Positions 1 to 30,320 of a stretch of 42,486 nucleotides of DNA are shown here, one piece after another (within the stretch, counting starts at the first letter, position 1; each line of letters begins with the position of its first letter). Source of the stretch: Phycisphaerae bacterium. Lineage in GTDB: Bacteria > Planctomycetota > Phycisphaerae > Sedimentisphaerales > Anaerobacaceae. Under the pieces are notes generated by a model. The model saw only the letters and a list, made by a program, of their open reading frames with translations. It did not search any database and was not told where the DNA came from. The position numbers and the translations under genes were made by a program. Where the stretch lies: positions 39,309 through 81,794 of the forward strand of contig JAGOLX010000024.1 of assembly GCA_017993835.1 (NCBI GenBank), read 5' to 3'.

Positions 1-2442
1 ACGCGTCCCGAGACGATGCTAGGCGACACCGCGGTCGCGATGAACCCCAGCGATCCGAGGGCTCCCTATCTCGTCGGCAAGCAGGTTCGTCTGCCCATCG
101 TCGGGCGGATCATCCCGATCATCGCGGACGAACACGTCGTGCTGCCGAACCCCGAGAGCGAGGACGAGAAGGCTCGCTTCTCGACCGGCTTCCTGAAGGT
201 GACGCCCGCCCATGACCCGGACGACTGGGCCATCGGGCAAAGGCACAATCTGCCGGTCATCAATATCATGGCGCCCGACGGCTCGATTAGCGACAAGCAC
301 GGCTGGCAGGACGCTACCGAGCCCGAGGCCCGCAATCTGCTGGGCCTGGACCGCTTCGAAGCCCGCGAGGCCATCGTCGAGTGGTTCCGCCAGGAGAACC
401 TCCTGGAGGAGATCCGCAACTACGCCCACGAGGTCGGGCACAGCTACCGCAGTCACGTGCCCATCGAGCCATACCTGTCGGACCAGTGGTACGTCGCGGT
501 CAAGAAACCCATCGAGCATCTGGCCGCCAAGTTCGGCAACGGGCTCATCGAAGGGACCGATGTCCCGGTGAATTCGCTGGCGGGCCTGGCGCTCAAGCCC
601 CTACTCGACGGCCGTCTGCGGTTCATCCCCGAACGATACGCCAAGACCTATCAGACCTGGCTGGAGAACCTGCGGGATTGGCCGATCAGCCGCCAACTCT
701 GGTGGGGACATCGCATCCCGGTCTGGCGATGCACAGCCAGACTCGGATCCGTGGCGTTTCCCAGCAGAACACAGGAGCCCAAAGAGTATCAAGCTGAATT
801 GCAGAGACGTCTAAATGAATTTGCGCGCCTGACGGGAACTAGTGGCTATCATGCACTCGTCGATCCGGAACGACTCGAGTTCTTCATCTGTTCTTCAGAC
901 ATCGAGGGGGATGAGGCCTTCAAGAAGATCGAGTCCCTGATGGAGTTCAGGGGTTCTCCAGGAGCTGGAGACGGACAGCCAACGCCCACGTATACGCTCC
1001 CCGATTTTCCAAACGAAGCTTATCCTTCGGCATTTGAAGTGCTGGACATGATTGCCACGGTTGACCAAGACCAAGACGTGCTCGACACTTGGTTCTCATC
1101 AGCCTTGTGGCCGTTCAGCACGCTGGGCTGGCCCGACCCGACGCCCGCGTTCAAGGCGTTCTATCCGGGCGACGTGCTCTGCACGGCGCGCGAGATCATC
1201 ACGCTGTGGGTCTCCCGCATGGTGATGATGGGCCAGTACTGCGCGGGCGATATCCCGTTCCATGACGTCTACATCCACGCGATGATCCAGGACGGCGAGG
1301 GACGCAAGATGTCCAAGAGCCTGGGCAACGGGATCGATCCACTGATCGCGATCGACAGCCACGGCGCCGACGCGATGCGGTTCACCCTGGCGACCATGAC
1401 GACGGACACCCAGGATATCCGCATGCCGGTCGCGTCGATGACGCTGCCCGATGGCCGCACCGCGAACACCTCGCCCAAGTTCGACCTCGGTCGCAACTTC
1501 TGTAACAAGCTGTGGAACGCGTCGCGATTCGCCATGATGAACCTGGAGGGCACCGATCCCGGCGCGTTCGACGCGAGCAAGATGGATATCACCGACAAGT
1601 GGATCCTGTCCCGCCTGGCGACGACCCGGGACGAAGTCACTCAGTCCATCGAGTCGTTCAAGTTCAGCGAGCCGCTCAACCAGTTGTACCGCTTCTTCTG
1701 GAACGACCTGTGCGACTGGTATCTGGAGTGGGCCAAGTCCCGAATGCGGGACGACAGCAGCAAGGGTGTCGCACAGAACGTCCTGGCCTTCGTCCTGGAC
1801 CAGACGCTGCGACTGCTGCACCCGTTCATCCCCTTCATCACGGAGGGCATCTACCAGAAGCTCAACGAGCTGGCGCCGGTTCGCGAACTCCGGGGCATCG
1901 CGTCGGGCGGCGCGGCGGCGGCCCTCGTCGTCGCGCCCTGGCCCGAGAGCATGGCGACGATGAAGGACCCGCAGGTCGAAGCGCACATCCAGGTCGTCCA
2001 GGACGTGGTCCGCGCGATCCGCGATATTCGAAGCAAGTACAACATCCCGCCGAGCACGAAGCTCAGGGCCTCCGCCAAGGCGTCGCAGGGCGTCGCAACC
2101 ATGCTCGCGGCGGGAAGCGATCTGGTCTGCCAGTTGGCAGGGCTCGAGACGTTCTCGGCTGCCGAAGGGCTCGCCAAGCCGAACAACGCCGCGACCGCGA
2201 TAGTGGGAGAGACGCACGTCTACGTACACGACGTCATCGATCCTGACGCGGAACGGGCTCGACTGGCAAAACAGAAACAGGAAATCGAACAGGCAAAAAG
2301 AGGCGTGGAAGCCAAGCTGAGCAACGAGAACTTCGTCGCGAGGGCCAAACCCGAAGTGGTGGCCCAGGCCCGAGAGAAACTTGCGCAGCTCCAGGAACAG
2401 CTCCAGGCGGTCGAAAAGCATCTGGCCGAGCTCGACGGGTAG
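1..2442 (+). CDS. valS: Valine--tRNA ligase, C-terminal part (5' end outside window)
   Basis: This class I aminoacyl-tRNA synthetase charges tRNA-Val in the cytoplasm. The reading frame is open from the first base, and TRPETMLGDTAVA of the editing domain is the first thing seen, so the catalytic HIGH region lies upstream of the window. Diagnostic blocks follow: PISRQLWWGHRIPVW, DVLDTWFSSALWPFSTLGWP, the KMSKS loop in GRKMSKSLGNG, and a C-terminal charged coiled coil (the tRNA-binding arm) ending in LAELDG. Between RIPVW and DVLDTWF, about positions 736-1068, lies an insertion of about 110 residues with lower GC than its flanks. It replaces the usual short, often cysteine-containing segment. 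The stop at 2440-2442 is 7 bases before the folded repeat element at 2450. The identification is very secure; the origin of the insertion is not. Confidence 0.97.
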   Translation, partial: TRPETMLGDTAVAMNPSDPRAPYLVGKQVRLPIVGRIIPIIADEHVVLPNPESEDEKARFSTGFLKVTPAHDPDDWAIGQRHNLPVINIMAPDGSISDKHGWQDATEPEARNLLGLDRFEAREAIVEWFRQENLLEEIRNYAHEVGHSYRSHVPIEPYLSDQWYVAVKKPIEHLAAKFGNGLIEGTDVPVNSLAGLALKPLLDGRLRFIPERYAKTYQTWLENLRDWPISRQLWWGHRIPVWRCTARLGSVAFPSRTQEPKEYQAELQRRLNEFARLTGTSGYHALVDPERLEFFICSSDIEGDEAFKKIESLMEFRGSPGAGDGQPTPTYTLPDFPNEAYPSAFEVLDMIATVDQDQDVLDTWFSSALWPFSTLGWPDPTPAFKAFYPGDVLCTAREIITLWVSRMVMMGQYCAGDIPFHDVYIHAMIQDGEGRKMSKSLGNGIDPLIAIDSHGADAMRFTLATMTTDTQDIRMPVASMTLPDGRTANTSPKFDLGRNFCNKLWNASRFAMMNLEGTDPGAFDASKMDITDKWILSRLATTRDEVTQSIESFKFSEPLNQLYRFFWNDLCDWYLEWAKSRMRDDSSKGVAQNVLAFVLDQTLRLLHPFIPFITEGIYQKLNELAPVRELRGIASGGAAAALVVAPWPESMATMKDPQVEAHIQVVQDVVRAIRDIRSKYNIPPSTKLRASAKASQGVATMLAAGSDLVCQLAGLETFSAAEGLAKPNNAATAIVGETHVYVHDVIDPDAERARLAKQKQEIEQAKRGVEAKLSNENFVARAKPEVVAQAREKLAQLQEQLQAVEKHLAELDG

Positions 2443-2449
2443 GAGTGGA

Positions 2450-2625
2450 CTTCTGCGAAATGGACGATTCGGCCTGTATTCTTCAAGAGAATCGCGTTCT
2501 TCGATTTCCTTGAAGAATCGACGTAGGTCTTTGTGATTCGTATGGTGGTGAAGATTCAGGAAGGAAAAATCGAGGGACAGGATTCTTCCTTCCTAAAGTA
2601 GGCGCAATTGCCCATTTTGCAGAAG
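2450..2625. repeat. Folded palindromic element, copy A (intergenic)
   Basis: This intergenic copy can fold into an outer stem with two inner hairpins. The outer arms are 2450-2475 and 2600-2625, with 21 of 26 positions complementary and two more as G-U. Hairpin 1 pairs 2478-2494 with 2502-2518 (15 of 17). Hairpin 2 pairs 2558-2571 with 2581-2594 (13 of 14). The core words GCCTGTATTCTTCAA, TTGAAGAAT, GATTCTTCC and AAAGTAGGC recur in copy B inside purQ at 29682-29848. It sits between the valS stop and the start of the BFN gene, so it could act as a valS 3' end or a leader structure for the next gene. No T-tract follows it, so it is not a canonical terminator. Confidence 0.85.
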
Positions 2626-2652
2626 TCCAGTCAGGAGATACAGGGGGATCGA

Positions 2653-3048
2653 ATGGAAGTGGAAGTTGAACTGTCGCGGATCATCATCAATGAGACTTCC
2701 GACCAACAGATCATCGTGTTGAAGGAACGTCATGGGACGCGGGGGTTCCCGATCGTGATCGGGATCGTCGAGATCTTCGCCATCGACCGGCGTCTCAAGG
2801 GGATCAAGCCGCCGCGACCGATGACCCACGACCTGCTGGCCAACGTGATCGACGGGCTCGGCGCAACGGTCGAGCGGATCGTCATCACCGACCTTCGCAA
2901 TCACACGTTCTACGCGACCATCCATCTGGCCATTGACGGTCGCACGGTCGAGATCGATTCAAGGCCCTCGGACGCCATCGCGCTGGGCGCCGCCATCCAG
3001 GCCCCTATTTTTGTGGCTGAGCATGTTTTCGATCTGACGAATCAGTGA
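2653..3048 (+). CDS. Bifunctional nuclease (BFN / DUF151) domain protein
   Basis: This is a 131-residue single-domain protein. It shows the BFN family pattern: an N-terminal strand of acidic and hydrophobic residues, QIIVLKERHGTRGFPIVIG, then RPMTHDLLANVIDGLGA and the terminal SRPSDAIALG block, which is the most conserved family signature. BFN-domain proteins have been reported to have nuclease activity, and the family is widespread in bacteria and plants; the substrate here is unknown. The ATG at 2653 is preferred because AGGAG and a GGGGG run lie just upstream. A TTG at 2608 would put the start inside the folded repeat element. Its 3' end overlaps that of lspA on the other strand by 44 bases. 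Confidence 0.88.
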   Translation: MEVEVELSRIIINETSDQQIIVLKERHGTRGFPIVIGIVEIFAIDRRLKGIKPPRPMTHDLLANVIDGLGATVERIVITDLRNHTFYATIHLAIDGRTVEIDSRPSDAIALGAAIQAPIFVAEHVFDLTNQ

Positions 3049-4870: not shown

Positions 4871-6445
4871 ATGACGAAAGAGAAGATCGCCCTGAAGAAG
4901 AGACCTTGCGTCTTAATCATACGCGATGGCTGGGGTTACAATCCCGACCCGAATGAAGATCAGTACAATTCCATCAAGCGGGCCCGCGTCCCGACGGACA
5001 CCATGCTGATGGCCGAGTACCCCCACTGCCTGGTCCACACGTACGGCGAGTGGGTCGGCCTGCCCGACGGCACCATGGGCAACAGCGAGGTCGGCCACCA
5101 GAACATCGGGGCCGGACGCGTCGTGCCCCAGGAATCCGTCCGACTGACCTTCGCCATCCGCGACGGGTCGTTCTTCCAGAACGAGCAGTTCCTCAAGATG
5201 ATCGAGTTCGTCAAGGCCCATCAGGGCAAGATGCACGTCATGGGCCTGTGCAGCGACATCGGCGTACACTCGCTTCTCGGGCACCTCTACGGCCTGCTGG
5301 AACTCGCCAAGCGGAACGATCTGAAGGACGTCTTCATTCACGCGTTCACGGACGGGCGGGATTCGCCGCCGGACAGCGGCCTGGGCTACCTCACCGATAT
5401 CGAGAAGAAGGCCGCCCAGATCGGGGTCGGCAAGATCGCGACGGTCATGGGCCGCTTCTACGCGATGGACCGGGACAGTCGCTGGGACCGCGTGCAGAAG
5501 GCCTTCGATTGCCTGCGGTTCGGCAAGGGTCTCAAGGCCCGCAGCGCCACGGAGGCGGTCAAGGGCAGCTACGACAAGAGCGTCACCGACGAGTTCATCG
5601 AGCCGACCGCGATTGTCACCGAGAACGGCGAGCCGCTTGCCAAGATCGAGGACGGCGACGGCATCGTGTTCTTCAACTTCCGAGGCGACCGGCCGCGCGA
5701 GATCACGCGGGCGTTCGTCGATCCGGAGTTCAAGGAGTTCACCCGAGCCGTCAAGCCGGACGTGTATTTCGTCTGCATGACCGAGTACGATACCTCCATC
5801 CCGGCGCCGGTCGCCTTCCCGAAACCTGCCAAGATGAGGAACATCCTCGGCGCCTACTGGGGCTCCCTCGGCATCAAGCAGTTCCGCTGCGCCGAGACCG
5901 AGAAATATGCCCATGTGACCTTCTTTTTCAACGACTACAACGAGAAGCCCTTCAAGGGCGAGGACCGTCAGATCGTCCCGTCACCGAAGGTGCGGACGTA
6001 CGACCTGAAACCCGAGATGAGTGCCTGCGAGGTGACGAACGTCGTCCTGGAGCGTCTCGATTCCGACAAGTACGACGTCATGGTCGTCAACTTCGCCAAT
6101 CCGGACATGGTGGGCCATACGGGCGACCTGAACGCCGCGATCAAGGCCGCCGAGACGGTGGACGAGTGTGTCGGCAAGATCCTCGGCAAGGTCAAGAGCA
6201 TGGGCGGCGCCGCCATCATCACCGCGGACCACGGGAACTTCGAGAAGATGATCGACGGCTCGCTGGACAAGCCGCATACGGCCCACACCGTCGGCGACGT
6301 CCCGCTGATCGTCTTCGACGACCAGTACAAGGGCAAAAAGCTCCGCGAGGGCGGCACCCTGGCCGACATCGGTCCCACGCTCCTGGAGGTCATGGGGTTG
6401 CCCCAGCCGAAGGAGATGACCGGACGAAGCCTGCTGCAACTGTAG
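4871..6445 (+). CDS. gpmI: 2,3-bisphosphoglycerate-independent phosphoglycerate mutase
   Basis: This cytoplasmic glycolytic and gluconeogenic enzyme interconverts 3- and 2-phosphoglycerate, using two metal ions and a phosphoserine intermediate. The 524-residue length matches the family. Visible signatures are IIRDGWGYN (metal-binding Asp19), GTMGNSEVGHQNIGAG (catalytic Ser72), HAFTDGRDSPP, FFNFRGDRPREITRAF, NFANPDMVGHTG and ITADHGNFEKM with a final HTAHTVGDVPLIV. The ATG at 4871 is favoured over the ATG at 4862 because GAAAGG (4855-4860) sits 10 bases before the former and only 1 base before the latter. It follows a strong promoter and is followed after 26 bases by mutL. Confidence 0.96.
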   Translation: MTKEKIALKKRPCVLIIRDGWGYNPDPNEDQYNSIKRARVPTDTMLMAEYPHCLVHTYGEWVGLPDGTMGNSEVGHQNIGAGRVVPQESVRLTFAIRDGSFFQNEQFLKMIEFVKAHQGKMHVMGLCSDIGVHSLLGHLYGLLELAKRNDLKDVFIHAFTDGRDSPPDSGLGYLTDIEKKAAQIGVGKIATVMGRFYAMDRDSRWDRVQKAFDCLRFGKGLKARSATEAVKGSYDKSVTDEFIEPTAIVTENGEPLAKIEDGDGIVFFNFRGDRPREITRAFVDPEFKEFTRAVKPDVYFVCMTEYDTSIPAPVAFPKPAKMRNILGAYWGSLGIKQFRCAETEKYAHVTFFFNDYNEKPFKGEDRQIVPSPKVRTYDLKPEMSACEVTNVVLERLDSDKYDVMVVNFANPDMVGHTGDLNAAIKAAETVDECVGKILGKVKSMGGAAIITADHGNFEKMIDGSLDKPHTAHTVGDVPLIVFDDQYKGKKLREGGTLADIGPTLLEVMGLPQPKEMTGRSLLQL

Positions 6446-29163: not shown

Positions 29164-29340
29164 GAAATCCGAATTTCGACCCCGCCAAGGCGGGAACGTA
29201 AATCCGAAACAAGCACGAATGACCAAAACCCAAAATTCGAAACGGAGTATCCGAGTGACCGTAGCGTTTCGGTCATTTGGATTTCGGGCCTTTGAATTTG
29301 TTTCGAGCTTCGTGCTTCGGATTTTGAATTTTGCTTTTTG
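29164..29340. repeat. Dispersed CCGAAAC-type imperfect palindrome, copy 1 (between purL and purQ)
   Basis: This AT-richer intergenic stretch is built of words such as AAATCCGAAACAAGCACGAA on the left and their approximate complements on the right (GAGCTTCGTGCTTCGGATTT). It resembles 35385-35545 in word content and two-armed layout. It separates purL from purQ by 186 bases within an otherwise tight run. Confidence 0.7.
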
Positions 29341-29348
29341 AGGCAAAG

Positions 29349-30320
29349 ATGGAACAAGTCCGAGCGATAGTCCTACGGGCCGCGGGAATCAACACCGACC
29401 TGGAAACCCAATATGCGTTGGAGCTGGCCGGCGCCAAGGCCGACCGCGTCCATATCAATCGAGCGATCGAGGACAAGGCACTGCTCGATCAGTACCAGAT
29501 CCTCATCTTCCCCGGCGGATTCAGCTACGGCGACGACGTCGCCGCCGGCAAGATCATGGCCAACCAGGTCGCCCACCATCTCGCAGAGGCGGTGCGGAAG
29601 TTCATCGACGACGGCAAGCTCGTCCTGGGCATCTGCAACGGATTCCAGGTCCTCGTCAAGGCAGGCATCCTGCCGGGGGGCTCGGAAAAAGGCAGATCGG
29701 GCCTGTATTCTTCAACGAAATCTCTTGGCTCGATTTCGTTGAAGAATGGACGTGACGAAGCTCTCGACGCGCGGCCAGGGTTTGAGGGGGAAGAATCGAA
29801 GAGGGAGATTCTTCCCCCTCAAAGTAGGCCCGATCTGCCTTTTTCCGAACCTTCCGCCGCCGGCGATTGGGAACCCTTCCGCCAGCAGGACGTCACCATC
29901 ACGTACAACGACAGCAACAAGTACGAAGACCGCTGGGTCTACCTCATGCCCCAGACGGATCGCTGCGTGTTCATCGAGCCGCAGCGGCAGATCTGCGTGC
30001 CCATCGCGCACGGAGAAGGCAAGATCGTCACGAAGAGCAACGAGACCCTCCAGAGACTCAAAGACGAGGGCTGCATCGCTTACAAATACGTCGATGAAGA
30101 AGGCAAAGAGGGCCCCTATCCGATCAATCCCAATGGCTCGATCGAGTCCATCGCCGGCCTGACGGACCGCACCGGGCGGGTCCTCGGACTCATGCCGCAC
30201 CCCGAGCGATACGTCCGGCGGACCCAGCACCCCCACTGGTCCCGACTCGGCGAAGACCTCGACCCGGACGGCATCAAGATCTTCCGCAACGCCGTCAAAT
30301 ACGTCCGCGAGAACCTGTAA
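29349..30320 (+). CDS. purQ: Phosphoribosylformylglycinamidine synthase glutaminase subunit, with in-frame folded-element insertion
   Basis: PurQ is the class I glutamine amidotransferase that feeds ammonia to PurL. The 323-residue frame shows IVLRAAGINTD, PGGFSYGDDVAAGKI, the nucleophile in LGICNGFQVLVKAG (Cys96) and the His284/Glu286 pair in MPHPERY. VTITYNDSNKYEDRW is the usual middle block. Between ILPGG and that block, residues about 112-167 are encoded by the folded palindromic element copy B (29682-29848) and look unlike any PurQ sequence. Without them the length would be close to normal. GAGG lies 5 bases before the ATG at 29349. The last codons form part of a perfect 11-bp palindrome at 30308-30332. 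Confidence 0.93.
   Translation: MEQVRAIVLRAAGINTDLETQYALELAGAKADRVHINRAIEDKALLDQYQILIFPGGFSYGDDVAAGKIMANQVAHHLAEAVRKFIDDGKLVLGICNGFQVLVKAGILPGGSEKGRSGLYSSTKSLGSISLKNGRDEALDARPGFEGEESKREILPPQSRPDLPFSEPSAAGDWEPFRQQDVTITYNDSNKYEDRWVYLMPQTDRCVFIEPQRQICVPIAHGEGKIVTKSNETLQRLKDEGCIAYKYVDEEGKEGPYPINPNGSIESIAGLTDRTGRVLGLMPHPERYVRRTQHPHWSRLGEDLDPDGIKIFRNAVKYVRENL
29682..29848. repeat. Folded palindromic element, copy B (inside purQ)
   Basis: Three perfect stems are seen: outer arms 29682-29704 with 29826-29848 (23 bp), hairpin 1 29707-29722 with 29732-29747 (16 bp), and hairpin 2 29781-29797 with 29807-29823 (17 bp). The core words are shared with copy A at 2450-2625, but the outer arms (here TCGGAAAAAGGCAGAT...) are unrelated to those of copy A. 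The element is translated in frame within purQ. Confidence 0.9.

Follow-up and report, generated by a model that had tools for sequence, protein, structure and literature searches.

Short mobile DNA palindromes without genes of their own, and their in-frame genic copies, in an uncultured planctomycete lineage

Introduction

Two distant segments of a planctomycete contig, one behind valS and one inside purQ, look like copies of the same folded element. An earlier note had left two readings side by side, either a non-autonomous palindromic element that is REP/BIME-like, IS200/IS605-derived or Rickettsia-palindromic-element-like, or a structured RNA. Which of these it is, and why its stems stay paired, are the questions raised by the 42,486 nt stretch analysed here (the window). 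We find that the two segments belong to a single family of mobile DNA palindromes, short and gene-less, of an uncultured planctomycete lineage.

Results

Architecture of the element

The folds of both segments contain the long outer stem and the two enclosed hairpins described before, and the shared core words occur in identical order in both copies (Table 1). The previously proposed extent of about 170 bp holds for the purQ copy; the valS-side copy is longer, with bounds at about 2444-2631. The arms of the latter, whose direction was set by the family alignment, are GGACTTCTGC and GCAGAAGTCC. Folding as single-stranded DNA gave z scores of -6.8 for the valS-side copy and -12.8 for the purQ copy, and 0 of 200 dinucleotide shuffles were as stable in either case.

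Table 1 Features of the two element copies and their host or neighbouring genes, in window positions
Feature	Position	Strand	Remark
valS (tRNA-synt_1, anticodon domain), upstream neighbour	16..2442	+	
Type B copy, old, intergenic	2444..2631	+	1 nt after valS stop, 21 nt before BFN-domain gene
Type B left outer arm, approximate	2447..2471	+	fold and alignment
Type B hairpin 1 (ATTCTTCAAG / CTTGAAGAAT plus inner pairs)	2478..2518	+	fold and alignment
Type B hairpin 2 (AGGAAGGAAAAATC / GATTCTTCCTTCCT)	2558..2594	+	fold and alignment
Type B right outer arm, approximate	2600..2628	+	fold and alignment
Bifunctional nuclease (BFN) domain gene, downstream neighbour	2653..3048	+	
purQ ORF, type A insertion in frame	29331..30320	+	329 aa
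Type A copy in purQ	29682..29848	+	core 29683-29847, 165 nt = 55 codons
Type A left outer arm CGGAAAAAGGCAGATCGGGCCTG	29683..29705	+	sequence reading and fold
Type A hairpin 1	29707..29747	+	fold and alignment
Type A hairpin 2	29781..29823	+	fold and alignment
Type A right outer arm TAGGCCCGATCTGCCTTTTTCCG	29825..29847	+	sequence reading and fold

The element measures ~165–181 bp and consists of a long terminal inverted repeat and two internal hairpins: an outer stem of ~27 bp surrounds hairpin 1 (~16 bp), a linker of ~39 nt, which is the least conserved part, and hairpin 2 (~17 bp). This architecture is kept across six genera, and the two halves are inverted relatives of each other, ~80% alike over 54 nt. 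Two subfamilies with inner sequence in common can be distinguished, (i) type A, to which the purQ copy belongs, with arms resembling CGGAAAAAGGCAGATCGGGCCTA and variable ends, and (ii) type B, represented by the valS-side copy, with arms resembling CTGGASTTYTGCAAAATGGAGATTAGGCCTA and CTGGASTT ends (CTGGASTTYTGCAAAATGG in genome G007, ATGAGTTCTGCAAAATTGC in G017). Bacterial miniature inverted-repeat elements (MITEs) are 70–300 bp long with terminal inverted repeats of 15–30 bp; type B, at ~165–196 bp depending on the genus, has this size and such repeats, 95% of the cells in its outer stem of ~27 bp being paired. Kissing between the two hairpin loops is unsupported: the loops are complementary in one copy (L010), but only 76% of cells are paired overall.

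Distribution of the family

A covariance model was derived from an alignment of 59 copies. The further copies that the earlier note had made the test of a family are present: in the genome of origin the model recovered 35 full-length copies, with E below 1e-30, and about ten that are truncated or nested. The model also matched all eight sister genomes of the genus and, elsewhere in its GTDB family, five genera (G015, G017, G021, G026 and G035), and gave no match in the 47 other relatives searched. BLAST with the type A consensus recovered ~40 places in the genome of origin and detected the element in 6 of the 8 sister genomes and nothing beyond the genus; a core word has many occurrences genome-wide. 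Exact 21-mer hits in contigs of Cyanobacteria, Cloacimonadota and Caenarcaniphilales came without a model match and are due to chance, and viral contigs gave zero exact hits. A literature search that had most subscription journals outside its reach returned no description of the family. The family is real and, as far as the searched literature shows, undescribed, and the kind of element is already known.

Mobility and insertion sites

Joined-flank searches located empty orthologous sites in sister species for 16 of 16 genic insertions tested. In sister species and other genera, the terminal inverted repeats of type B are surrounded by target-site duplications of 7–13 bp, for example TTCATAA, TATCTAA, CGTTGTCATA and ATAAATAACA, so type B behaves as a MITE. 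Direct repeats of at least 7 bp bordering the copy ends were counted: in G017 they accompany 12 of 20 type B copies where 0.4 would be expected, other genera have 9 of 23 against an expectation of 0.8, and the genus itself has 5 of 25 against 0.4. Dispersed copies, empty sites and direct duplications in relatives thus bear out the suggestion of a non-autonomous mobile palindrome. Most sites are not common to different species. A type B copy beside groES occupies the same site in two species (L015 in the genome of origin, L093 in G004) and carries several compensated stem changes; at least one type B site is therefore old. An apparent shared site of L002 and L033, which lie in the same gene family, was discarded as their positions differ. 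Type B copies adjoin valS, tpiA, groES and rpsP starts, and the gene context of element copies varies. Apparent neighbouring genes of ~300 aa in G017 proved to be an artefact of the length of the analysed stretch.

Type A lacks a direct target duplication (1 of 36 copies, 0.6 expected), and its mode of insertion may differ from that of type B; yet type A copies resemble one another nearly as closely as type B copies of G007 do, the median nearest-neighbour identity being 0.89 versus 0.92. Beyond the core, type A arms extend into copy-specific complementarity with a mean run of 3.7 bp, compared to 1.4 bp for mismatched copies, and 0 of 2000 shuffles reach this value. At L006 (GCGGAT / ATCCGC) and L034 (CTGAC / GTCAG), the empty sites contain the left sequence and not its right complement, which suggests, from these few sites, that the right end of type A copies the left flank. 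The same picture would arise from an ordinary duplication if template switching had overwritten its right copy at a later time. Type A might spread by fold-back, its right end being extended on the left flank to give an inverted rather than a direct target copy; template switching would keep the arms paired for long periods while the copies are translated, and several families of coding palindromes would at the same time supply the lineage with new protein segments. We put this scenario forward tentatively and consider it doubtful as a whole.

An end-pattern search for an autonomous parent or a transposase with the same ends was negative in G000 and G007, both draft genomes of the kind that repeats break. 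The one-ended hits examined proved to be either truncated copies or copies with a different sequence inside hairpin 2. In G007, six one-ended type B remnants (L247, L249, L250, L251, L252 and L254) run from a CTGGASTT-like end to variable interior stops, and in L244 and L245 hairpin 2 is interrupted by an identical stretch of foreign DNA, GGTGGTATCCCCARATGACT, which is probably one end of a different insertion sequence.

The genome of origin contains Y1 transposases and GTAG-type REPs, which raises the possibility that type A, unlike type B, moves by a single-strand reaction of the Y1/RAYT type (REPIN-like). The lack of a direct duplication, the hairpin architecture and the two inverted half-units, ~80% alike, are what such a mechanism would have in its favour, but neither the element nor ends resembling its own occur at any of the five Y1 loci, the ends of type A have no GTAG tag, and its inner sequence is common with type B, whose copies have direct duplications. 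We therefore regard Y1/RAYT mobilisation of type A as unlikely. The IS200/IS605 derivation offered earlier is rejected because type B duplicates its targets by 7–13 bp and the Y1 loci have no ends in common with the element; the REP/BIME proposal likewise fell, as there is neither a GTAG-tagged unit of 20–40 bp nor a linked RAYT. One of the Y1 loci in the genome of origin (L183, contig C12 near 42135) has AAAGGGGTCAGGCTTTGG inverted repeats on both sides, which are unrelated to the element and resemble those of the TIR-associated tyrosine transposases (PMC3733652).

Maintenance of paired stems

The stems of the family covary very strongly. Two-sided changes affect 46 of 69 pairs and amount to 413 cells, compared to 145 after shuffling, and sliding controls collapse. 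Stems at the level of shuffled sequence, which would have spoken against the element, are thus not what we find. G-U accounts for 1.9% of pairs, alike in genic and non-genic copies. In 22 independent sister pairs of copies, one-sided changes led to 31 G-U pairs versus 69 mismatches, a split close to the one-third G-U expected without selection, an expectation estimated by taking transitions as twice as common as transversions. Changes coinciding in both arms numbered 59, compared to 14 in the permutation. Rare G-U pairs and one-sided changes without a G-U preference therefore favour DNA-level copying from arm to arm over selection on RNA. Paired changes of this kind can arise by template switching between arms, a mechanism that has been published (PMC8794818).

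Compensated changes also occur at fixed sites. At the orthologous site L010/L032 there is one double change and zero broken pairs, and L008/L034 and the groES-side type B copy have several compensated changes each. Divergence of the element at L010/L032 is low, with pS 0.05 versus 0.40 for synonymous sites of the host gene in the flank, which template switching alone leaves unexplained. Among all copies, L010 and L032 are nearest to one another; this speaks weakly against their conversion by others, so some constraint may act on this element.

Selection on the DNA hairpin itself, through a role in chromosome biology or as a protein-binding site, would fit the low G-U content with its Watson-Crick double changes as well as the low divergence and mutual closeness of L010 and L032. 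It does not account for copy-specific pairing that extends into flanks of host origin, for which an earlier function cannot be presumed, for the frequency of one-sided mismatches (69 of the 159 stem pairs that differ between sister copies) or for the scarcity of sites common to several species, and we judge it an unlikely reason for the structure of the resident copies.

A structured RNA, cis-regulatory or involved in processing, that spread by duplication and kept its fold for the sake of a function would have stems that covary because the RNA must fold. The strength of the covariation, an architecture conserved in six genera, the type B copies beside valS, tpiA, groES and rpsP starts and the compensated groES-side site in two species all agree with it. 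Such an RNA would tolerate G-U pairs as intermediates; instead they remain at 1.9%, and one-sided changes to G-U are no commoner than expected without selection. Genic copies lie in both orientations, the gene context is inconstant, no credible Rfam match was obtained, and target duplications and empty sites make mobility evident. The RNA reading, which the earlier note had kept as its alternative, is accordingly disfavoured, and we consider it improbable. Arm-to-arm copying at the DNA level remains the preferred account of the paired stems.

Genic copies lie in open frames

At least 22 type A copies lie within genes, 17 in the genome of origin and 5 in G001, G004 and G005, as judged from the coding potential of the flanks and from spanning frames. 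All of them are open, 17 in plus phase 1 and 5 on the minus strand, and in protein genes type A occurs only in the two open frames of the element (plus phase 1 and one minus-strand frame), giving a readable insert of ~55 extra amino acids. Compared to empty sites of sister species, 19 genes have gained a net length divisible by 3. The net length is 158 for L020, where the comparison extends into upstream non-coding DNA, and 166 in one comparison and 165 in the other for L040. Hosts identified by Pfam are PurQ, NadE, RNase R, GH127, a 2-hydroxyacid dehydrogenase with DUF3410, PfkB plus HAD, an [FeFe]-hydrogenase, a radical SAM protein, a URO-D protein, an Exo_endo_phos protein, an FtsK-like protein and an MTHFR/pterin-binding fusion; the coding scores of L007 are weaker, and L009 and L024 have no Pfam match. 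The plus-frame peptide, SEKGRSGLYSSTKSLGSISLKNG...DARPGFEGEKS..EIFPPQSRPDLPFS, is well conserved.

The only purQ match in the genome is the insert-bearing one, and its insert follows ILPGG, between two stretches that can be aligned with solved FGAM synthases. That the element carries no gene, as described before, is right insofar as a transposase is absent; the purQ copy is nevertheless an in-frame insertion in the ORF of its host. The reading frames predict that the inserts can be read through when the host proteins are translated. Type B is intergenic and was not convincingly found inside genes; together with a 7-bp duplication it would add 188 nt in G007, which is not a multiple of 3, and this length may explain the lack of convincing genic copies.

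That intron-like excision or ribosome bypassing takes the genic copies out before or during synthesis of the host protein, which would then be normal, is highly improbable: the insert does lie within conserved enzymes such as PurQ and NadE, its structure is stable and bypassing elements with hairpins exist elsewhere, but removal requires neither an open frame nor a length divisible by 3 and is contradicted by the 22 of 22 open genic copies, the multiples of 3 in 19 genes and the occurrence of both orientations.

Several further observations concern the genic loci. In L040 (contig C46 of the genome of origin, near 6050), the element lies in the linker just before a thioredoxin-like 2Fe-2S domain that is fused to the [FeFe]-hydrogenase at the C-terminus. 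Other short REP-like repeats (GTAGCCCAGCCGCC...CGGCTGGGG; CCCGACGCGCAGCGGCGCTGCGGGG) occur at or near the type A hairpin loops of L016, L019, L051, L026, L057 and L292, and the additions of 27 nt in L026 and 24 nt in L057 keep the multiple of 3. At the L057 and L078 sites, relatives (L293 in G004; L292 in the genome of origin) have only the outer arms around a different interior, and these forms of ~105 and 150 nt are still multiples of 3. L292 (C110:2300-4900, minus strand) is an 866-aa MTHFR/pterin-binding fusion ORF with four in-frame repeat inserts. Two of these are of type A, one a remnant whose interior is made of AGAAGGT repeats and the other a copy in which GTAG-type REPs are nested; the remaining two are a second AGAAGGT palindrome and a KELHHRGTEVTE...LCLCGES repeat. 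Judged by their reading frames, several unrelated repeat families seem to be protein-coding in this genome.

Discussion

The best overall explanation, and one that we hold to be likely, is a family of miniature inverted-repeat mobile elements whose in-frame genic copies are tolerated and whose arms are kept complementary mainly by template switching. The element would be moved in trans by a putative transposase; insertions that shift the frame or stop translation would be lost, and those in frame would survive as tolerated extra loops, by analogy with Rickettsia palindromic elements. The arms of resident copies would be kept complementary mainly by replication template switching from one arm to the other, which may also carry a small number of adjacent host bases over to the other arm. 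A regulatory or RNA function is unnecessary for most of the pattern.

Rickettsia is the best-known case of palindromic repeats that often insert in frame into conserved genes, and the same outcome is met here in a different phylum. Clean empty sites, orthologous filled sites and the duplications of a sister subfamily make the origin of coding palindromes testable. The family also provides a natural set of compensatory changes that are better explained by template switching than by selection on RNA, and these changes are a warning for covariation-based RNA discovery.

Rickettsia palindromic elements are short palindromic repeats with an open frame that lie between genes and in frame within unrelated conserved genes (PMC2229807, PMC10969869). 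The likeness to them and to their Wolbachia counterparts is one of behaviour, that is, repeats between genes and in frame in unrelated protein genes, and it is in this sense that the Rickettsia comparison of the earlier note proved apt. By behaviour the planctomycete element works like these elements, although it is not a demonstrated member of their group: they measure ~100–150 bp, and the planctomycete element is somewhat longer (165 bp), has two internal hairpins and occurs in another phylum. Their CGTC tag at one end (PMC3733652) is missing here, and their target duplication is given as '?' (PMC2229807), in contrast to the direct duplications of type B.

The bacterial MITEs NEMIS/Correia, RUP, ERIC and YPAL are, like the present element, 70–300 bp long with long terminal inverted repeats and no transposase gene. 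Some of them, ERIC and the 107-bp Correia element, likewise have open frames fused to genes. MITEs make direct target duplications, as does type B; type A differs from them in having copy-specific inverted arm extensions without direct duplications. REP, BIME and REPIN systems with RAYT resemble the element in being dispersed and in pairing inverted half-units across a linker; REPs are known inside genes and occur in Planctomycetes (PMC3733652). The planctomycete unit is, however, much longer, its aligned ends have no GTAG tag, no Y1 transposase is linked to it and type B makes direct duplications. IS200/IS605-derived elements leave targets unduplicated and share ends with a Y1 insertion sequence; type B duplicates its targets, and the five Y1 loci have no ends in common with the element. 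Coding palindromes are also found in nematomorph mitochondria, where long inverted repeats are kept inside translated genes (PMC6649704); the nematomorph arms encode conserved host sequence, whereas the planctomycete element is an inserted dispersed repeat.
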